48,110 nt of DNA, taken from contig JALHLV010000029.1 in assembly GCA_022844405.1 (NCBI GenBank), forward strand, positions 1 to 48,110, read 5' to 3'. The notes beneath the pieces are model-generated. The model was not told the DNA's origin and did not search any database. It saw nothing but the letters and a program-made list of their open reading frames with translations. Within the stretch, counting starts at the first letter, position 1; each line of letters starts with the position of its first letter. The stretch is from Sphingomonadales bacterium. GTDB taxonomy: Bacteria > Pseudomonadota > Alphaproteobacteria > SMXS01. Made by a program: the position numbers and the translations under genes. Shown one piece after another: positions 6,545 to 11,907 of the stretch.

Positions 6545-7768
6545 CTAATCCTTCGGCATCAAGCTATGCAGCGCCCCTGACGCCTCCAGCGCGGTCACCG
6601 CCTCGGCGCTCAACCCCGCCTCCAGCAGCACCTCCCTGTTGTGCTCGCCCAGGCCCGGCGGATCGCGCCGAATCGAGGCGGGTGTTTGGGCGAACTTCAC
6701 CGGCTGGCGCATGGAGCGGTACACGCCCTCGGTGGGATGCCGGCGCTGCTCGAAGAAGCCGACGCTGGACAGATGCTCCTCGGTCTTCAGCTCCTCGACC
6801 CGGTTCACCCGCATCACCGGGATGTCCCGCTCGGTCAGCAACGTCATCCATTCGTCGCTGGTCCGGGTCGGCGTGACATCGACCAGCAGACCATAGAGCT
6901 CGCGGAAATGGCGGGCGAGGCCGCCCATGGTCAGCAGGCGCGGATCGTCGTCGGCGATCGGGATGCCGCCGAGGCGCAGCGCCTGGCGCCACTGTTCGGT
7001 GGAGTAGGGCATGATGCAGATGTAGCCGTCCCTGGTCCGGTACGGCTTGCGGTTGATGTTGATGATGCGGTGATAGCCGTAGTCGCCTTGCGGCGGCTCC
7101 CAGGTATGGCCGTTCATGTGCTCGATCATCAGGAACGAGGTGAAGCTTTCCAGCATGGGCACCTCGACGAACTGGCCCTCGCCGGTGCGCTGGCTGTGGA
7201 ACAACGCGGCCAGCGTGGCGTAGGCCGCGTGCAGGCCGGTGGTCTTGTCGGCGGCCAGCGTCGCCATGTAGCGCGGCTCCTCGTCCGGATCGACCATCCG
7301 GTTGAGACTGGCCGCGCTGGATGCCGCCTGCACCAGGTCGTCATAGGCGGCCCGGCCCGCATAGGCGCCCTCGGTGCCGAAGCCGACGCAATGGACATAG
7401 ACGACGTCCGGCTTGATGGCGCGCACGGCCTCGTAGCCCAGGCCGAGGCGCTCGATGGCCTCCAACCGGACGTTGTGCAGGAACACGTCGGCGGTGCGGA
7501 TCAGTTCGACCAGTGCCCCCCTGGCGCCGTCCTTCTTCAGGTCGAGGCACAGCGACCGCTTGTTGCGGTTGCAGTTCATGAAGATGGGCGAGAAGCCCGG
7601 ATGGGCGGACGGCCCGGCCCATCGGGTCATGTCGGCCTTGGGCGATTCCACCCGGATCACGTCGGCGCCCAGGTCGCCGAGAATCTGGCCGGCATAGGGA
7701 CCGAGCAGCACGGTCGACATATCGATCACCCGGACGCCGTCCAGCGGCCCGCGCTTGGGTTCAGTCAT
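6545..7768 (-). CDS. CaiB/BaiF (family III) CoA-transferase
   Basis: The 407-residue protein begins GVRVIDMSTVLLGPYAGQIL, the typical N-terminus of family III CoA-transferases. It has the predicted catalytic Asp143 in AYDDLVQA, the residue that forms the mixed-anhydride/thioester intermediate. Such enzymes move CoA from a donor thioester to a carboxylic acid, usually as the first step of acid degradation or in a side-chain pathway. It is the last gene of the minus-strand set P450, Rieske oxygenase, VOC, CoA-transferase, with gaps of 62-76 bases. The acid it activates is unknown. Confidence 0.92.
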   Translation of the reverse strand: MTEPKRGPLDGVRVIDMSTVLLGPYAGQILGDLGADVIRVESPKADMTRWAGPSAHPGFSPIFMNCNRNKRSLCLDLKKDGARGALVELIRTADVFLHNVRLEAIERLGLGYEAVRAIKPDVVYVHCVGFGTEGAYAGRAAYDDLVQAASSAASLNRMVDPDEEPRYMATLAADKTTGLHAAYATLAALFHSQRTGEGQFVEVPMLESFTSFLMIEHMNGHTWEPPQGDYGYHRIININRKPYRTRDGYICIMPYSTEQWRQALRLGGIPIADDDPRLLTMGGLARHFRELYGLLVDVTPTRTSDEWMTLLTERDIPVMRVNRVEELKTEEHLSSVGFFEQRRHPTEGVYRSMRQPVKFAQTPASIRRDPPGLGEHNREVLLEAGLSAEAVTALEASGALHSLMPKD

Positions 7769-7838: not shown

Positions 7839-8378
7839 TCAGTCCTTCGACGGTGTCCAGGTCACCAGGCGGATGGGGTCGGTCTTGCCGTCCCACGCCG
7901 CATGCACATCCCGCCAGTTCTTGAACGAGGCGCGGACCTGCGGGTTGTCCTGATAGAGCTCGACGAAGCAGCCGAACAGGTGGCGGGCGTCCATGTAGGC
8001 GACACGGGCAGACGAGAACAGCTCGGTCACCGTCTCGCAGCCGGCTTTTTCGAAGCGCTGCTTCTCCTCGTCGATGTCGGGAACGAGGATCGCGAAGTGA
8101 TGGAAGCCCTGCTCGCCTTTCCGGTACATGTCGCCGTAGCACGACGGCTCGTCGTTATGCACCTGGATGAGCTGGACGTGCGCCGGCCCGGCCTGGCCGA
8201 ACGCATAGGACACGTCCACGTCGCACGGCTTGCCGCGGTAGACGGTGTCGCGCGACTTGTGGTGCGGCATCAGGAAGAACGGCCCGGCGCCGACCAGATC
8301 GACCCAGCGCATGCACGCCGCCTCGATGTCGTCGACCACATAGGCATATTGCTCGATGGGATAGCGGATCAGGCTCAT
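7839..8378 (-). CDS. VOC-fold protein (methylmalonyl-CoA epimerase-like)
   Basis: The 179-residue product shows two VOC half-modules: QYAYVVDDIEAACMRWVDLVG near the start and GFHHFAILVPDIDEEKQRFE from about residue 90. It ends each with the expected metal-ligand strands (QLIQVH and CFVELYQD). Length and order resemble epimerase/lyase-type VOC proteins rather than antibiotic-resistance dimers. The ribosome site GGGGAG precedes the ATG. It lies between the Rieske oxygenase and CoA-transferase genes on the same strand, so it probably acts on an intermediate of the same pathway. The exact reaction is not assignable. Confidence 0.82.
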   Translation of the reverse strand: MSLIRYPIEQYAYVVDDIEAACMRWVDLVGAGPFFLMPHHKSRDTVYRGKPCDVDVSYAFGQAGPAHVQLIQVHNDEPSCYGDMYRKGEQGFHHFAILVPDIDEEKQRFEKAGCETVTELFSSARVAYMDARHLFGCFVELYQDNPQVRASFKNWRDVHAAWDGKTDPIRLVTWTPSKD

Positions 8379-8454: not shown

Positions 8455-9732
8455 CTACTCCGCCGCCATTGACTGCTGCTGGCGCAGCCGTTCGTTGGTG
8501 TCGTTGGGGTGGATCCATTCGTCGCCGATCACCGGCTCGGCGCGCAGGTGCGCCGGGACGATGTTGGCGCCGATGGTCTTGTCGATGTTCTGGTGCATGT
8601 GGTAGATGCGCGCCTCCTGGTAGCACAGCGGCACGCCCTTGAAGGCATAGGAGTCCACCGACTTCTGGATCGCGTCGCCGAACTGGGTGTCCTCGGTGAT
8701 CACCACGTTGAAGTACTCGATCTGCTTGCGCCAGATCTCCGGCACCGGACCGGTGCCCCAATCCATGGCGAACCAGCGGATCTCGTATTTGGTCTCGCGG
8801 ATGTTCACCGGCCAGAAGTGCAGCACCGGAAACAGGGTCGGCCCCAGCGGCGACACCCAGTTGGGTTCGATGTGGTAGGACTGGGTGCAGGTGCGGCCGA
8901 TTTCGCCCACCGTGTCGATCTCAGGCAGCCCCTGGCCCACCTGGGCATAGCCCGACTTGCGCCCCACGACCCGGTTCGGCGCCACCATGCGCGAATGGCC
9001 GTGCGGATAGAGCGTGTTGACGTTGCCGCGGTAGTCCAGGCTCGGGTCCACCGTCTGCGGGTGGATCGACTTCACATGATAGACCTCCATGTTGGCTTCC
9101 ATGGCGATCTTCCAGTTGCAGTGCAGGTCCCAGATGTAGTGGTCGACCAGGCGCAGGTTCTGGAACTGGAACTCCTGCAGCTCGTCGTAGATCGGACCCA
9201 TGTAGTCGCGCAGCGACGGCGCATCCTCGTCGAAGTTGACGAAGATCAGCTTGCCGAACATCTCGGTTTTCACCGCATAGAGGCTGCGGCATTCCATGTC
9301 GAAGTCGACGAAGTCGCGTCTGTCGCGCATGCCGACGAGCTCGCCCTGATGGTTGTAGGTCCAGCCGTGATAGCCGCACACCAGCCCGTGCTCGGCGGTG
9401 CCGTACTTTTCGGTGACGACCGGCGCGCCGCGGTGACGGCAGGTGTTGTAGAACGAGCGGACCACGCCGTCCTTGCCGTGCACGATGACGATGGGCTGGC
9501 GCGCGATATCCCACAACATGTAGTTGCCCGCTTCGGGAATCTCGTCGAGCGTGCCGGCCAGCATCCAGACCTTGCTCCAGTAGTGCTTGTTCTCCAGCTC
9601 GAAGAACTCTTCGTCGTTGTAGCGGCCGGCGGGCAGGTCGGGGAACTTGGGGAAGCCCTCAGGCGGCGACTTGCGCTTGAACTCGAAGTCGATCTGCTGG
9701 CGGATATCCCGGATCTGCTCTTGCGTCAGCAT
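8455..9732 (-). CDS. Rieske non-heme iron oxygenase, large (alpha) subunit
   Basis: The 425-residue protein has the Rieske [2Fe-2S] motif C98-x-H100 ... C119-x2-H122 (CRHRG and CGYHGWTY). It also has the mononuclear iron site in NMEVYHVKSIH, with His219 and His224 as predicted ligands; an Asp in the later EDTQFGD segment is a candidate third ligand. Such enzymes hydroxylate or demethylate aromatic or alicyclic substrates using electrons from a reductase and ferredoxin. No reductase, ferredoxin or small-subunit gene is adjacent, so electrons must come from elsewhere. The AGGAG site 8 bases before the ATG supports this start. Confidence 0.93.
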   Translation of the reverse strand: MLTQEQIRDIRQQIDFEFKRKSPPEGFPKFPDLPAGRYNDEEFFELENKHYWSKVWMLAGTLDEIPEAGNYMLWDIARQPIVIVHGKDGVVRSFYNTCRHRGAPVVTEKYGTAEHGLVCGYHGWTYNHQGELVGMRDRRDFVDFDMECRSLYAVKTEMFGKLIFVNFDEDAPSLRDYMGPIYDELQEFQFQNLRLVDHYIWDLHCNWKIAMEANMEVYHVKSIHPQTVDPSLDYRGNVNTLYPHGHSRMVAPNRVVGRKSGYAQVGQGLPEIDTVGEIGRTCTQSYHIEPNWVSPLGPTLFPVLHFWPVNIRETKYEIRWFAMDWGTGPVPEIWRKQIEYFNVVITEDTQFGDAIQKSVDSYAFKGVPLCYQEARIYHMHQNIDKTIGANIVPAHLRAEPVIGDEWIHPNDTNERLRQQQSMAAE

Positions 9733-9794: not shown

Positions 9795-11039
9795 TCAGCC
9801 AGCCCTCGGCGTCAGCCGAAGCGGCAGCTTCGTCGGCCCCCGCAGCGCGAAGCTGGGGTGGTAGTGGATTTCGGATGACGGCACGGCCAGCTCGAAATGG
9901 CTGAAGCGGTCGAGAACGGCGCGGAAGCTGACCAGCATCTCGGCGCGGGCAAGCTGGGAGCCGACACAGTGATGGATGCCCGAGCCGAAGGCGATGTGGG
10001 CGCCGTTGTTCTTGCGGTCCAGGTCGAACTCCTCGGGCCGGTCGAACTTGGCCTCGTCCCGGTTGCCGGCGGCATAGCGGATCATCACCGTCGCGCCCTT
10101 CGGGATGCGCACGCCGCCGAGCTCCGTGTCCTCGGCGACATAGCGGAACAGGCCCTGAACCGGCGACTCGATGCGCAGGATTTCCTCGACGAACTTTGGT
10201 AGCCGCTCGGGACTGGCGCGCAGCCGCGCCTGCAGGTCCTGATCCTCGGCCAGGCGCTGGAGGCCGTTGGCGATACCGTTGGTGGTGGTTTCGTTGCCGG
10301 CCACCAGGATCTGCTCGACGATCGACAGTACTTCCTTGTCGGTCAAGGGCCGTTCGCCGTCGTAGGTGGCCTGTACAAGGTCGCTCATGATGTCGTCGCG
10401 GGGCAGGGTCCGGCGCTCGGCCATGCGGGCGATCATGTAGTGCTGCATCTCGACCACCTTTTCGGCGGCATCGATCAGCACCGCGTCCGGGACCTTCATG
10501 CCGAGGCCGATGACCCAGGCGTCGGACCATTCCTTGAACTTCTGGAAGTCCTCGCGCGGCACGCCGAGCTGGTCGGCGATGACGTACATGGGCACCGGCA
10601 CGGCCAGGTCGGCGACAGCGTCGCACTCGCCCTTGCCGGCGAACGTCTCGACCAGGCCGGCCACCACCTCGGTGATGTAGGCTTCCATCTGGCGGATGCG
10701 GCCGGCGCGGAACGCGTCGTTGACCAGACCGCGATAGACCGTATGGCCGGGCTGGTCGTTGTTGACGATGGTCGGCATGAACCGGCCATAGCCCTTCTCG
10801 TTGATGATCCGCTCGGCCTCCTCGCAATAGAGGCCGGCGCGGCGGCCGGACGGCGCCAGGTTCGAGTAAACCTTGTTGTTCTTCATCACCTCCAGGAGCA
10901 GGTCATAGGACGTGACGATATACATGCCGGTCTCGGGCATCAGATAGACCGGCGCCTCTTCGCGGAGCACCTTGTAATAGGCGAATGGGCACTGCTGCAC
11001 GGCAGGGTCCAGCAGGCTGAACTGCTCTGGCTTGTTCAT
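9795..11039 (-). CDS. cytochrome P450 (first of three)
   Basis: The 414-residue soluble bacterial P450 has the I-helix oxygen-activation motif AGNETTT (residues 247-253), the K-helix ExxR (Glu286, Arg289) and the heme loop [10 protein letters not shown] with proximal Cys358. It would hydroxylate a hydrophobic substrate, with electrons from ferredoxin and reductase partners not seen nearby. It is the first gene of the P450-Rieske-VOC-CoA-transferase set. It is divergent from a LuxR-type regulator, and a lux-box-like palindrome lies 62 bases upstream of its ATG. It is clearly less similar to the other two P450s here than they are to each other. Confidence 0.95.
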
Positions 11040-11101
11040 GTGGGTACGCTTCCCCGTATTCCCGATGCCATGGAGTTTGGGCGAACGCGCCTGTAACGTC
11101 T

Positions 11102-11121
11102 ACCTCTCGGAATCGACAGGT
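11102..11121. promoter_or_regulatory. lux-box-like 20-bp palindrome
   Basis: The 20-mer ACCTCTCGGAATCGACAGGT has the size, outer ACCT...AGGT ends and imperfect dyad symmetry of the classical Vibrio fischeri lux box: the left half and the inverted right half agree at 8 of 10 positions. It lies between the divergent P450 gene (62 bases from its ATG) and the LuxR-type gene (18 bases from its ATG). It could thus activate the catabolic set while repressing the regulator gene. Binding by the neighbouring regulator is an inference. Confidence 0.55.
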
Positions 11122-11139
11122 GGGGAGCGCCGCGCGAGG

Positions 11140-11907
11140 ATGAGCCTGAACGACGTCACCGCATGCCTCGACGCACTGGAGCGCGCGACCCGGCTCGCCG
11201 AGGGCGTCGGCCTGCTGCGGCGCATCGGCGAACTGATCGGCATTCCGCTGGTTGCTGCCCTCGACGACATCTCGACCACCGTGCCGCTGACCGACGAGGA
11301 CGGCAACCGCCTCGCCGAGCTGTTCGGCTGGAACAAGGCGGCGATCGACGAATGGGTCGATCAGAACTACACGCTGATCAGCCCGACGACGCACGCCTGC
11401 CGCTTCCAGCACCTGCCGTTTTTCTGGCAGGCGAACCATCCGTTCCCGCAGGAGCAGGCGCTGGAGCCGATCCAGCGCAAGGTGCTGGACTGGCAGGTGA
11501 GCCAAGGCATCCACGGCGCCATCATCGTGCCGACGCATCTGTCGCGCGGCCGGGTCGGTTCGGTGTCGTGGCTGAACCGCGATCCGGCGCTGGACATCGA
11601 GCCGATCTGGCGCGAGCACCGTCGCGCGCTGCTGCTTGCCGCCTTGCAGTTCATGCAAATCGCCGACACCGCGCGCGGCATCAGCGCCCCGGAAACCGCG
11701 TTCATCTACCTGACCAGCCGCGAGATCGAGTGCCTGACCTGGGCCGCGCGCGGCAAGACCGACCAGGAGATCGCGGTGATCCTGTCGTTCTCGCCCTCGA
11801 CCGCCCGCTTCCACATCGAGAACGCCGCCGGAAAGCTGAACGCGGTGACGCGAACCCAGGCCGTGGCGAAAGCCGCGCAGCTCGGAATCATCGGGCCGAT
11901 TTTTTGA
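11140..11907 (+). CDS. LuxR-family regulator with autoinducer-binding-type domain (LuxR solo)
   Basis: The 255-residue protein has an N-terminal domain (about residues 10-165) like autoinducer-binding domains, including the NYTLISP...PFFW stretch, and a C-terminal LuxR helix-turn-helix (about 190-250: [21 protein letters not shown]). Where AHL receptors carry Asp-Pro, this protein has Ser-Pro, so the ligand may not be a standard acyl-homoserine lactone. No luxI-type synthase is in the window. The ATG at 11140 starts just before the conserved domain; upstream in-frame starts would overlap the promoter region. It is divergent from the P450 set, which it probably controls. Confidence 0.85.

Follow-up and report, generated by a model that had tools for sequence, protein, structure and literature searches.

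The divergent gene pair and its LuxR-type regulator

The window, by which we mean the whole stretch of 48,110 nucleotides from a Sphingomonadales bacterium that was analysed, contains two divergent genes separated by an intergenic region of exactly 100 bp (11040-11139). The start codon of a cytochrome P450 gene begins at 11039 on the minus strand, and the ATG of a LuxR-type gene lies at 11140. The P450 gene (9795-11039) is the first gene of a predicted target operon. It is followed, all on the minus strand, by genes for a Rieske oxygenase alpha subunit (8455-9732), a VOC/glyoxalase-fold protein (7839-8378) and a family III CoA-transferase (6545-7768), each assigned by domain match. The LuxR-type regulator (11140-11907, plus strand) has 255 aa, inside the 230-270 aa typical of LuxR solos, and carries the autoinducer-binding domain PF03472 at its N-terminus and the GerE helix-turn-helix PF00196 at its C-terminus, at 51.5 bits each (cut-offs 23 and 23.5). 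An earlier note on this DNA had named the same five protein types and had placed a 20-mer in the region between the divergent luxR and P450 genes. The domain calls were right, and the two start codons bear out the placement.

The P450 is nearest by sequence to a chain named CYP125MRCA, to CYP142-type and to other bacterial P450s of known structure. The Rieske proteins are nearest, over the N-terminal half, to carnitine monooxygenase and to phthalate and biphenyl dioxygenases. None of the NCBIfam matches listed for the P450 and Rieske proteins lies at or above the cut-off. A steroid, a terpenoid or an aromatic acid are our guesses for the substrate class of the pathway. The genome to which the window belongs (G000, 3.78 Mb) is very rich in oxygenases, with 44 Rieske alpha-subunit matches and approximately 38 P450 genes (41 match rows, three of which are second pieces of one frame). 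In G007, which belongs to the same family, there are 48 such Rieske matches.

The AF2 model of the regulator (mean pLDDT 87.1, pTM 0.70) has its best PDB matches in TraR, QscR and LasR (E 2e-11 to 2e-10; full-length TM approximately 0.5). Ser81, followed by Pro82, aligns with Asp70, the residue in contact with the AHL amide, of RhlR variants, QscR and LasR; the Ser-Pro that had been read earlier in place of the Asp-Pro of AHL receptors is thus seen against all of these. Pro82 (Pro71 position) and Trp96 (Trp85 position) are kept. Two other pocket positions depend on the alignment, with Trp or Val at the Tyr61 position and Ala or Ile at the Trp57 position; the Gly113 position is read as Ala. Plant-responsive LuxR solos are defined by W57M and Y61W in the part of PMC4414361 used here. 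This signature is absent from the window protein, in which position 57 is not Met and Trp stands at position 61 in one alignment only. Among 32 aligned family members, the Asp70 position is Ser in 26, Cys in three, Asn in two, Ala in one and Asp in none. Judged from sequence, the change from Asp to Ser makes an AHL ligand less likely and names no other ligand. We consider it likely that the ligand of this protein is not an AHL.

Eighty LuxR-type loci were retrieved as relatives. The top 37 (L060-L096) share a GW...W region (RW in L084) ahead of the Asp70 position and lack the Asp; the cut between L096 and L097 was made by rank and by this region, judged by eye. A P450 or Rieske gene lies within approximately 4 kb (BLAST to the window proteins) in 16 of these 37 loci and in none of the other 43. 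The 16 are not independent cases because they include four orthologues of the window gene and several close kin. Asp occupies the position in 14 of the 80 loci, all among the 43, many of which also lack it. In a draw of 385 genomes from the class, six had a match at E ≤ 1e-28, five of them belonging to the family of the window LuxR.

Matches to PF00765 (luxI) at E ≤ 1 were found on contigs C15 and C1 only, and none on C29, the contig of the window. With no adjacent luxI, the window LuxR is a solo by test. The statement in the earlier note that the window holds no luxI gene is therefore true, but it has no value as evidence, since luxI-type genes occur elsewhere in the genome. On C15, a luxI/luxR pair (L049) has a strong dyad, ACCCTACGGAGTACCGTAGGTG (CCTACGG-N4-CCGTAGG), before luxI (start 4690, minus strand), which is possibly the lux box of a true quorum-sensing pair. 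In this one genome, it differs from the 20-mer of the window.

A conserved 20-mer in the intergenic region

The 20-mer ACCTCTCGGAATCGACAGGT at 11102-11121 is an imperfect dyad with seven of ten symmetric base pairs, and 18 bp separate its end from the LuxR start codon. It had been described as having the size and outer bases of a classical lux box. This description fits, with a palindrome that is weak: the left half reads CTCT and not CTGT, and the likeness lies in the size and the outer bases. The lux-box consensus is quoted as NNCT-N12-AGNN, 20 bp, in the part of PMC7432010 consulted. The window copy has this form, as do all 21 of the sites listed; those 21 were found with search patterns or matrices biased towards CT and AG. 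When the 100-bp region was shuffled (2000 mononucleotide shuffles), 36% of the shuffles reached at least 7/10 pairs and 5.5% reached 8/10. The palindrome by itself therefore proves nothing, and we rejected its strength as evidence of function.

The case for function begins with conservation. Orthologues of the LuxR are present in all six other genomes of the genus that were searched (82-96% identity), each divergent from a P450 orthologue. The 20-mer is near-invariant and always lies between luxR and the P450 gene in all seven species. Conservation of the palindrome at orthologous LuxR/P450 loci, the check that the earlier note had proposed for itself, is thus present in 7/7 species. In the seven-species alignment, which takes in the first luxR codons, 16 of 20 columns are invariant in the 20-mer compared with 44 of 89 elsewhere. 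A 31-bp block (11090-11120) covering most of the 20-mer has 28 of 31 invariant columns, compared with 32 of 78 outside, and an 11-bp block, TGGAGTTTGGG (11071-11081), is also invariant. The P450 orthologues of other genera, in G007 (75%) and G008 (69%), lack the site.

The segment CCTGTAACG beside the 20-mer was considered as part of a longer 31-bp dyad. This was rejected, as only 5 bp pair at the ends, judged by eye. We take this segment, which falls in the 31-bp block, as the putative -35/spacer of the P450 promoter.

Among 33 further LuxR relatives, the upstream region holds an exact dyad in one and a dyad with one mismatch in three; the other 29 have none. The exact one is in L074 (Caulobacteraceae), beside a Rieske gene. 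There, a CTGTC-N6-GACAG dyad (L074:3884-3911) stands just before an in-frame ATG of the LuxR relative. The Rieske gene comes after that relative and has 57% identity to the Rieske of the window.

Sites before Rieske genes and promoter geometry

The search pattern CTNTCNGANTCGAYAGG was derived solely from the seven-species alignment of the luxR/P450 region. At up to two mismatches, it matches 22 times in G000 compared with 21 for the reversed control, and 199 times compared with 140 in the seven genus genomes, which is a modest excess. Raw counts at this level were rejected as evidence, because G000 shows no enrichment; the informative part is the places of the close matches. Six places among the 22 matches in G000 were inspected (C29, C8, C11, C27, C16 and C26). 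At up to one mismatch, three matches are left in G000: the window site and two upstream of Rieske genes on C8 and C11, where the 20-mer ends 57 and 67 bp before the start codons, respectively. In the four genus genomes for which close matches were listed (G000, G002, G005 and G006), 9 of 14 non-self matches at up to one mismatch stand no more than 100 bp ahead of a Rieske gene. Of these nine, one (G002:C1:1418365) precedes a Rieske gene of another kind and lacks the usual -10, and the remaining five are not oxygenase promoters. The candidate sites at G000:C27, C16 and C26, G002:C2:1541406, G005:C3:348639, G005:C2:390911, G006:C36 and G006:C65 have no P450 or Rieske start just downstream. Outside the genus, none of the matches at up to one mismatch in G007 (four) and G008 (one) lies just upstream of a Rieske gene, and in G009 the pattern finds nothing at one mismatch. 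The Rieske site of G007 carries two mismatches to the pattern.

A weight matrix trained on the sites of other species, including orthologues of the G000 sites, was applied in G000 to the starts of 50 Rieske-like frames, which represent 44 loci, and of 39 P450-like frames, which represent 36 loci. It scored 27.7 at the C11 Rieske gene, 25.8 at the window P450 and 19.7 at the C8 Rieske gene. Two Rieske-like frames and one P450-like frame among those scanned thus carry the site. The next-best scores are only 6.3 (Rieske-like) and 3.0 (P450-like), so this is not a general oxygenase site. Compared between types, the site-bearing Rieske genes are 65-71% identical to the C11-type query. Their clade also has members without the site, namely the first Rieske gene of the C8 cluster (five genomes), G007:C14, G008:C140 and G008:C55; in the C8 cluster, the second and third Rieske genes have it. 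A Rieske fragment (G006:C26) was left out, as it has too little upstream sequence.

In G002:C2, two copies 22 bp apart (L297:10475-10516) stand before a C11-type Rieske gene. Near VOC/P450 genes of the C8 cluster, there are near-perfect palindromes, ACCTGTCAGCCCTGACAGGT in G002 (L296:19687-19706) and ACCTGTCAGGGGTGACAGTG in G005 (L299:10654-10673). The G007 counterpart of the catabolic island of the window has an operator-like sequence, GCTATCGATTCCGGGAGC, between a SnoaL-like gene and a TonB-receptor gene (L302:10415, G007:C35).

We measured the distance from the site to a -10-like hexamer in 19 Rieske and seven P450 promoters that bear it. Only the offset of 24 after the 16-mer peaks clearly, with a mean of 3.38/6 matches to TATAAT over six promoter groups; the next-best offset, 21, has a mean of 2.03/6. 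This offset wins or ties in 21 of 26 promoters. Five depart from it: L305, L011 and L014, together with L332, which is one base shorter and does best at 23, and L312 of G008, which has no hexamer at that place. As hexamer, the C8a group has GATAAT, the C11 group TAnnnT and G007 TATTAT; the C8b group has AATAGT, AATAAT, CACAGT or CATAGT. All seven P450 promoters share CAAACT, a poor match (3/6). An ungapped alignment of 17 of the 26 promoters, which does not include L332 and L312 (either would break it), has C3, T4, A15, A17, G18 and T20 invariant, C3-T4 and A17-G18 being the lux-box CT and AG; the A at position 2 and the T at position 6 of the -10 are invariant as well. The Rieske site of G008 scores 24.2 with the matrix, yet has no -10 at the usual offset.

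The centre of the 20-mer is 35 bp from that of the predicted -10 hexamer, which places it at approximately -44.5, as inferred from the hexamer. Published positions, in the parts of the sources used, are -42.5 for a lux box (PMC7585371) and approximately -45, overlapping the -35, for a class II tra box (PMC3907764). On the sequence evidence, the predicted position would suit an activator site of the lux-box type.

A sequence model of operator and promoter together (R1) was then used on ten genomes at E ≤ 0.01, with 150 of the 510-1806 first-look candidates scored per genome and with training sequences matching by construction. Within these candidates, only P450 promoters and C8- and C11-type Rieske promoters were found, giving three or four units per genus genome, one in G007 and none in G008 and G009. 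The match at the window P450 promoter covers 11072-11120 on the minus strand; the G008 Rieske site has no R1 match. Because the 20-mer recurs at the same place in the promoters of related Rieske genes, it is very probably a real control site, and we are highly confident that it is a functional operator.

The probable binding protein and its proposed mode of action

The scan of 18 window proteins turned up a single regulator, the LuxR, and it stands beside the site in 7/7 species. Going by this sequence context, it is probably the main binder of the operator, a view held slightly less firmly because of the close matches in G007 and G008. If it does bind, it is likely to activate. The explanation we favour, with reasonable rather than strong confidence in the whole, is a LuxR-type activator operator that serves a small P450/Rieske regulon, with the adjacent LuxR as the likeliest binder. 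The LuxR solo would bind as a dimer and make contact with RNA polymerase in the manner of LuxR and TraR at class II promoters, at a weak sigma-70-type promoter (-10 CAAACT, 11079-11074) that would drive the P450-Rieske-VOC-CoA-transferase set leftwards. As the same operator is found at the same -10 distance before two or three related Rieske genes elsewhere in each genus genome, it would define a small oxygenase regulon. The switch would be a non-AHL compound, probably the substrate or an early intermediate of the pathway. As the operator ends so close to the luxR start codon, luxR is probably autoregulated through it. The regulator thus probably switches on the breakdown of an organic compound rather than cell-to-cell signalling. 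The earlier note had suggested a catabolic operon wired to a LuxR-type receptor with a non-AHL ligand. That reading gains a conserved site at a predicted activator-type position and has to be extended, since the operator is not private to the P450 operon.

It is unlikely, though well worth weighing, that another LuxR-type protein binds the operator, namely a paralogue of the type encoded on C35 or the quorum-sensing LuxR of C15. A C35-type LuxR gene adjoins C8-type Rieske genes in G001, G002, G003 and G005, and its recognition helix (TVRFHLEN) is similar to the one in the window LuxR (TARFHIEN). Quorum-sensing control of ring-hydroxylating dioxygenase genes with lux boxes has also been published for Croceicoccus (PMC7432010, seen in part). 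However, the C35-type gene was not found in G006 (an 84% complete draft), although the C8-type sites are kept there, and the draft G009 has the C35-type, no window-type and, at E ≤ 0.01, no such operator. Moreover, the Rieske gene divergent from the C35-type LuxR lacks the operator, and the C15 luxI promoter has a different dyad. The C35-type was also not found in G004 (78% complete). In the LuxR tree, the window type groups with G008_C139 (96/92), and the LuxR of G007 (44%) falls weakly on the C35-type side (82/58). We regard it as improbable that a regulator of another family acts in trans on all sites, for example the LysR-type protein near the C11-type Rieske gene. That LysR gene is kept in G000, G002, G005 and G007 (71-85% identity to the G000 copy), and the C8 cluster contains TetR-type genes. 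Nevertheless, the Pfam scan found no LysR-type protein among the 18 window proteins and seven C8-locus proteins (not every gene there). LysR boxes are usually T-N11-A and odd-centred, whereas the present dyad has an even centre and, like a lux box, is bounded by CT-N12-AG.

The operator might instead serve a repressor, with the ligand-free LuxR blocking both the P450 promoter and its own gene. Some LuxR-type proteins repress, and the site also lies 18 bp ahead of the luxR start codon; the near-constant spacing to the -10 and the class II position are what is expected of an activator, and we judge repression to be decidedly unlikely. A chance palindrome without function would account for a dyad strength at chance level. 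It is made highly improbable by the conservation in seven species, the recurrence before Rieske genes and the common promoter geometry. Activation by the adjacent LuxR is therefore kept as the preferred reading.

A LuxR-type regulator with a lux box and a class II promoter is a known kind of system. As in the V. fischeri lux system, regulator and target are divergent and the box is a 20-bp NNCT-N12-AGNN dyad; as in the class II LuxR/TraR promoters of V. fischeri and Agrobacterium, the operator is predicted to lie at approximately -42.5 to -45 and to overlap the -35 (PMC7432010, PMC7585371, PMC3907764 and PMC4427320, each used in part). In contrast to those systems, a cognate luxI beside the regulator is absent here, Ser replaces Asp70, the predicted targets are oxygenase genes and the start site is a predicted one. 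In Croceicoccus naphthovorans PQ-2, according to the part of PMC7432010 consulted, AHL quorum sensing controls PAH catabolism through a LuxR-type system, and a ring-hydroxylating dioxygenase gene has a lux box in its promoter. That system is an AHL-dependent LuxI/LuxR pair, whereas the window protein is a solo without the AHL-contacting Asp, and its operator is unlike the dyad before the luxI of its own genome. PluR and PauR of Photorhabdus, which have non-AHL ligands, are likewise solo LuxR proteins with an altered WYDPWG motif; they keep the Asp (TYDQCS and TYDQYI), whereas the window protein has Ser and lies among catabolic genes (PMC4414361, in the part consulted). The titles and abstract openings listed from the open-access literature searched contained no PF03472 LuxR solo that controls P450/Rieske genes, and the words P450, catabol and oxygenase are absent from the main text of a review on LuxR solos (PMC10134790). 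In that open-access literature, we have seen no precedent for a solo without Asp70 that runs a dispersed P450/Rieske regulon. Nearest in theme, compared by title only, is a LuxR solo that reportedly controls dibenzofuran catabolism in Rhodococcus (Fu et al., 2025).

If the preferred reading is true, a quorum-sensing receptor scaffold has been turned to the sensing of a nutrient or pollutant, and its operator is defined, its target set small and defined, and its promoter easily tested. Oxygenases that share one operator probably have a substrate family in common, which offers an entry to the function of a few among the many Rieske and P450 genes of this genome. More tentatively, and with somewhat more doubt than belief, the clade with FGW...W...SP and without the AHL-binding Asp may have left quorum sensing and become sensors of P450/Rieske pathway substrates in alpha- and gammaproteobacteria that are rich in oxygenases; the window LuxR would then command its dispersed regulon through class II lux-box promoters.

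Two further observations concern other LuxR-type genes of G000. On C1, at approximately 27.5-27.9 kb (L050:5469-5912), a second luxI-like gene adjoins a LuxR gene and appears as short overlapping frames (110 and 147 aa), perhaps frameshifted. On C37, a lux-box-like dyad, ACTGTAAGAAGTGACAGT (L052:5709), lies near another LuxR-type gene.
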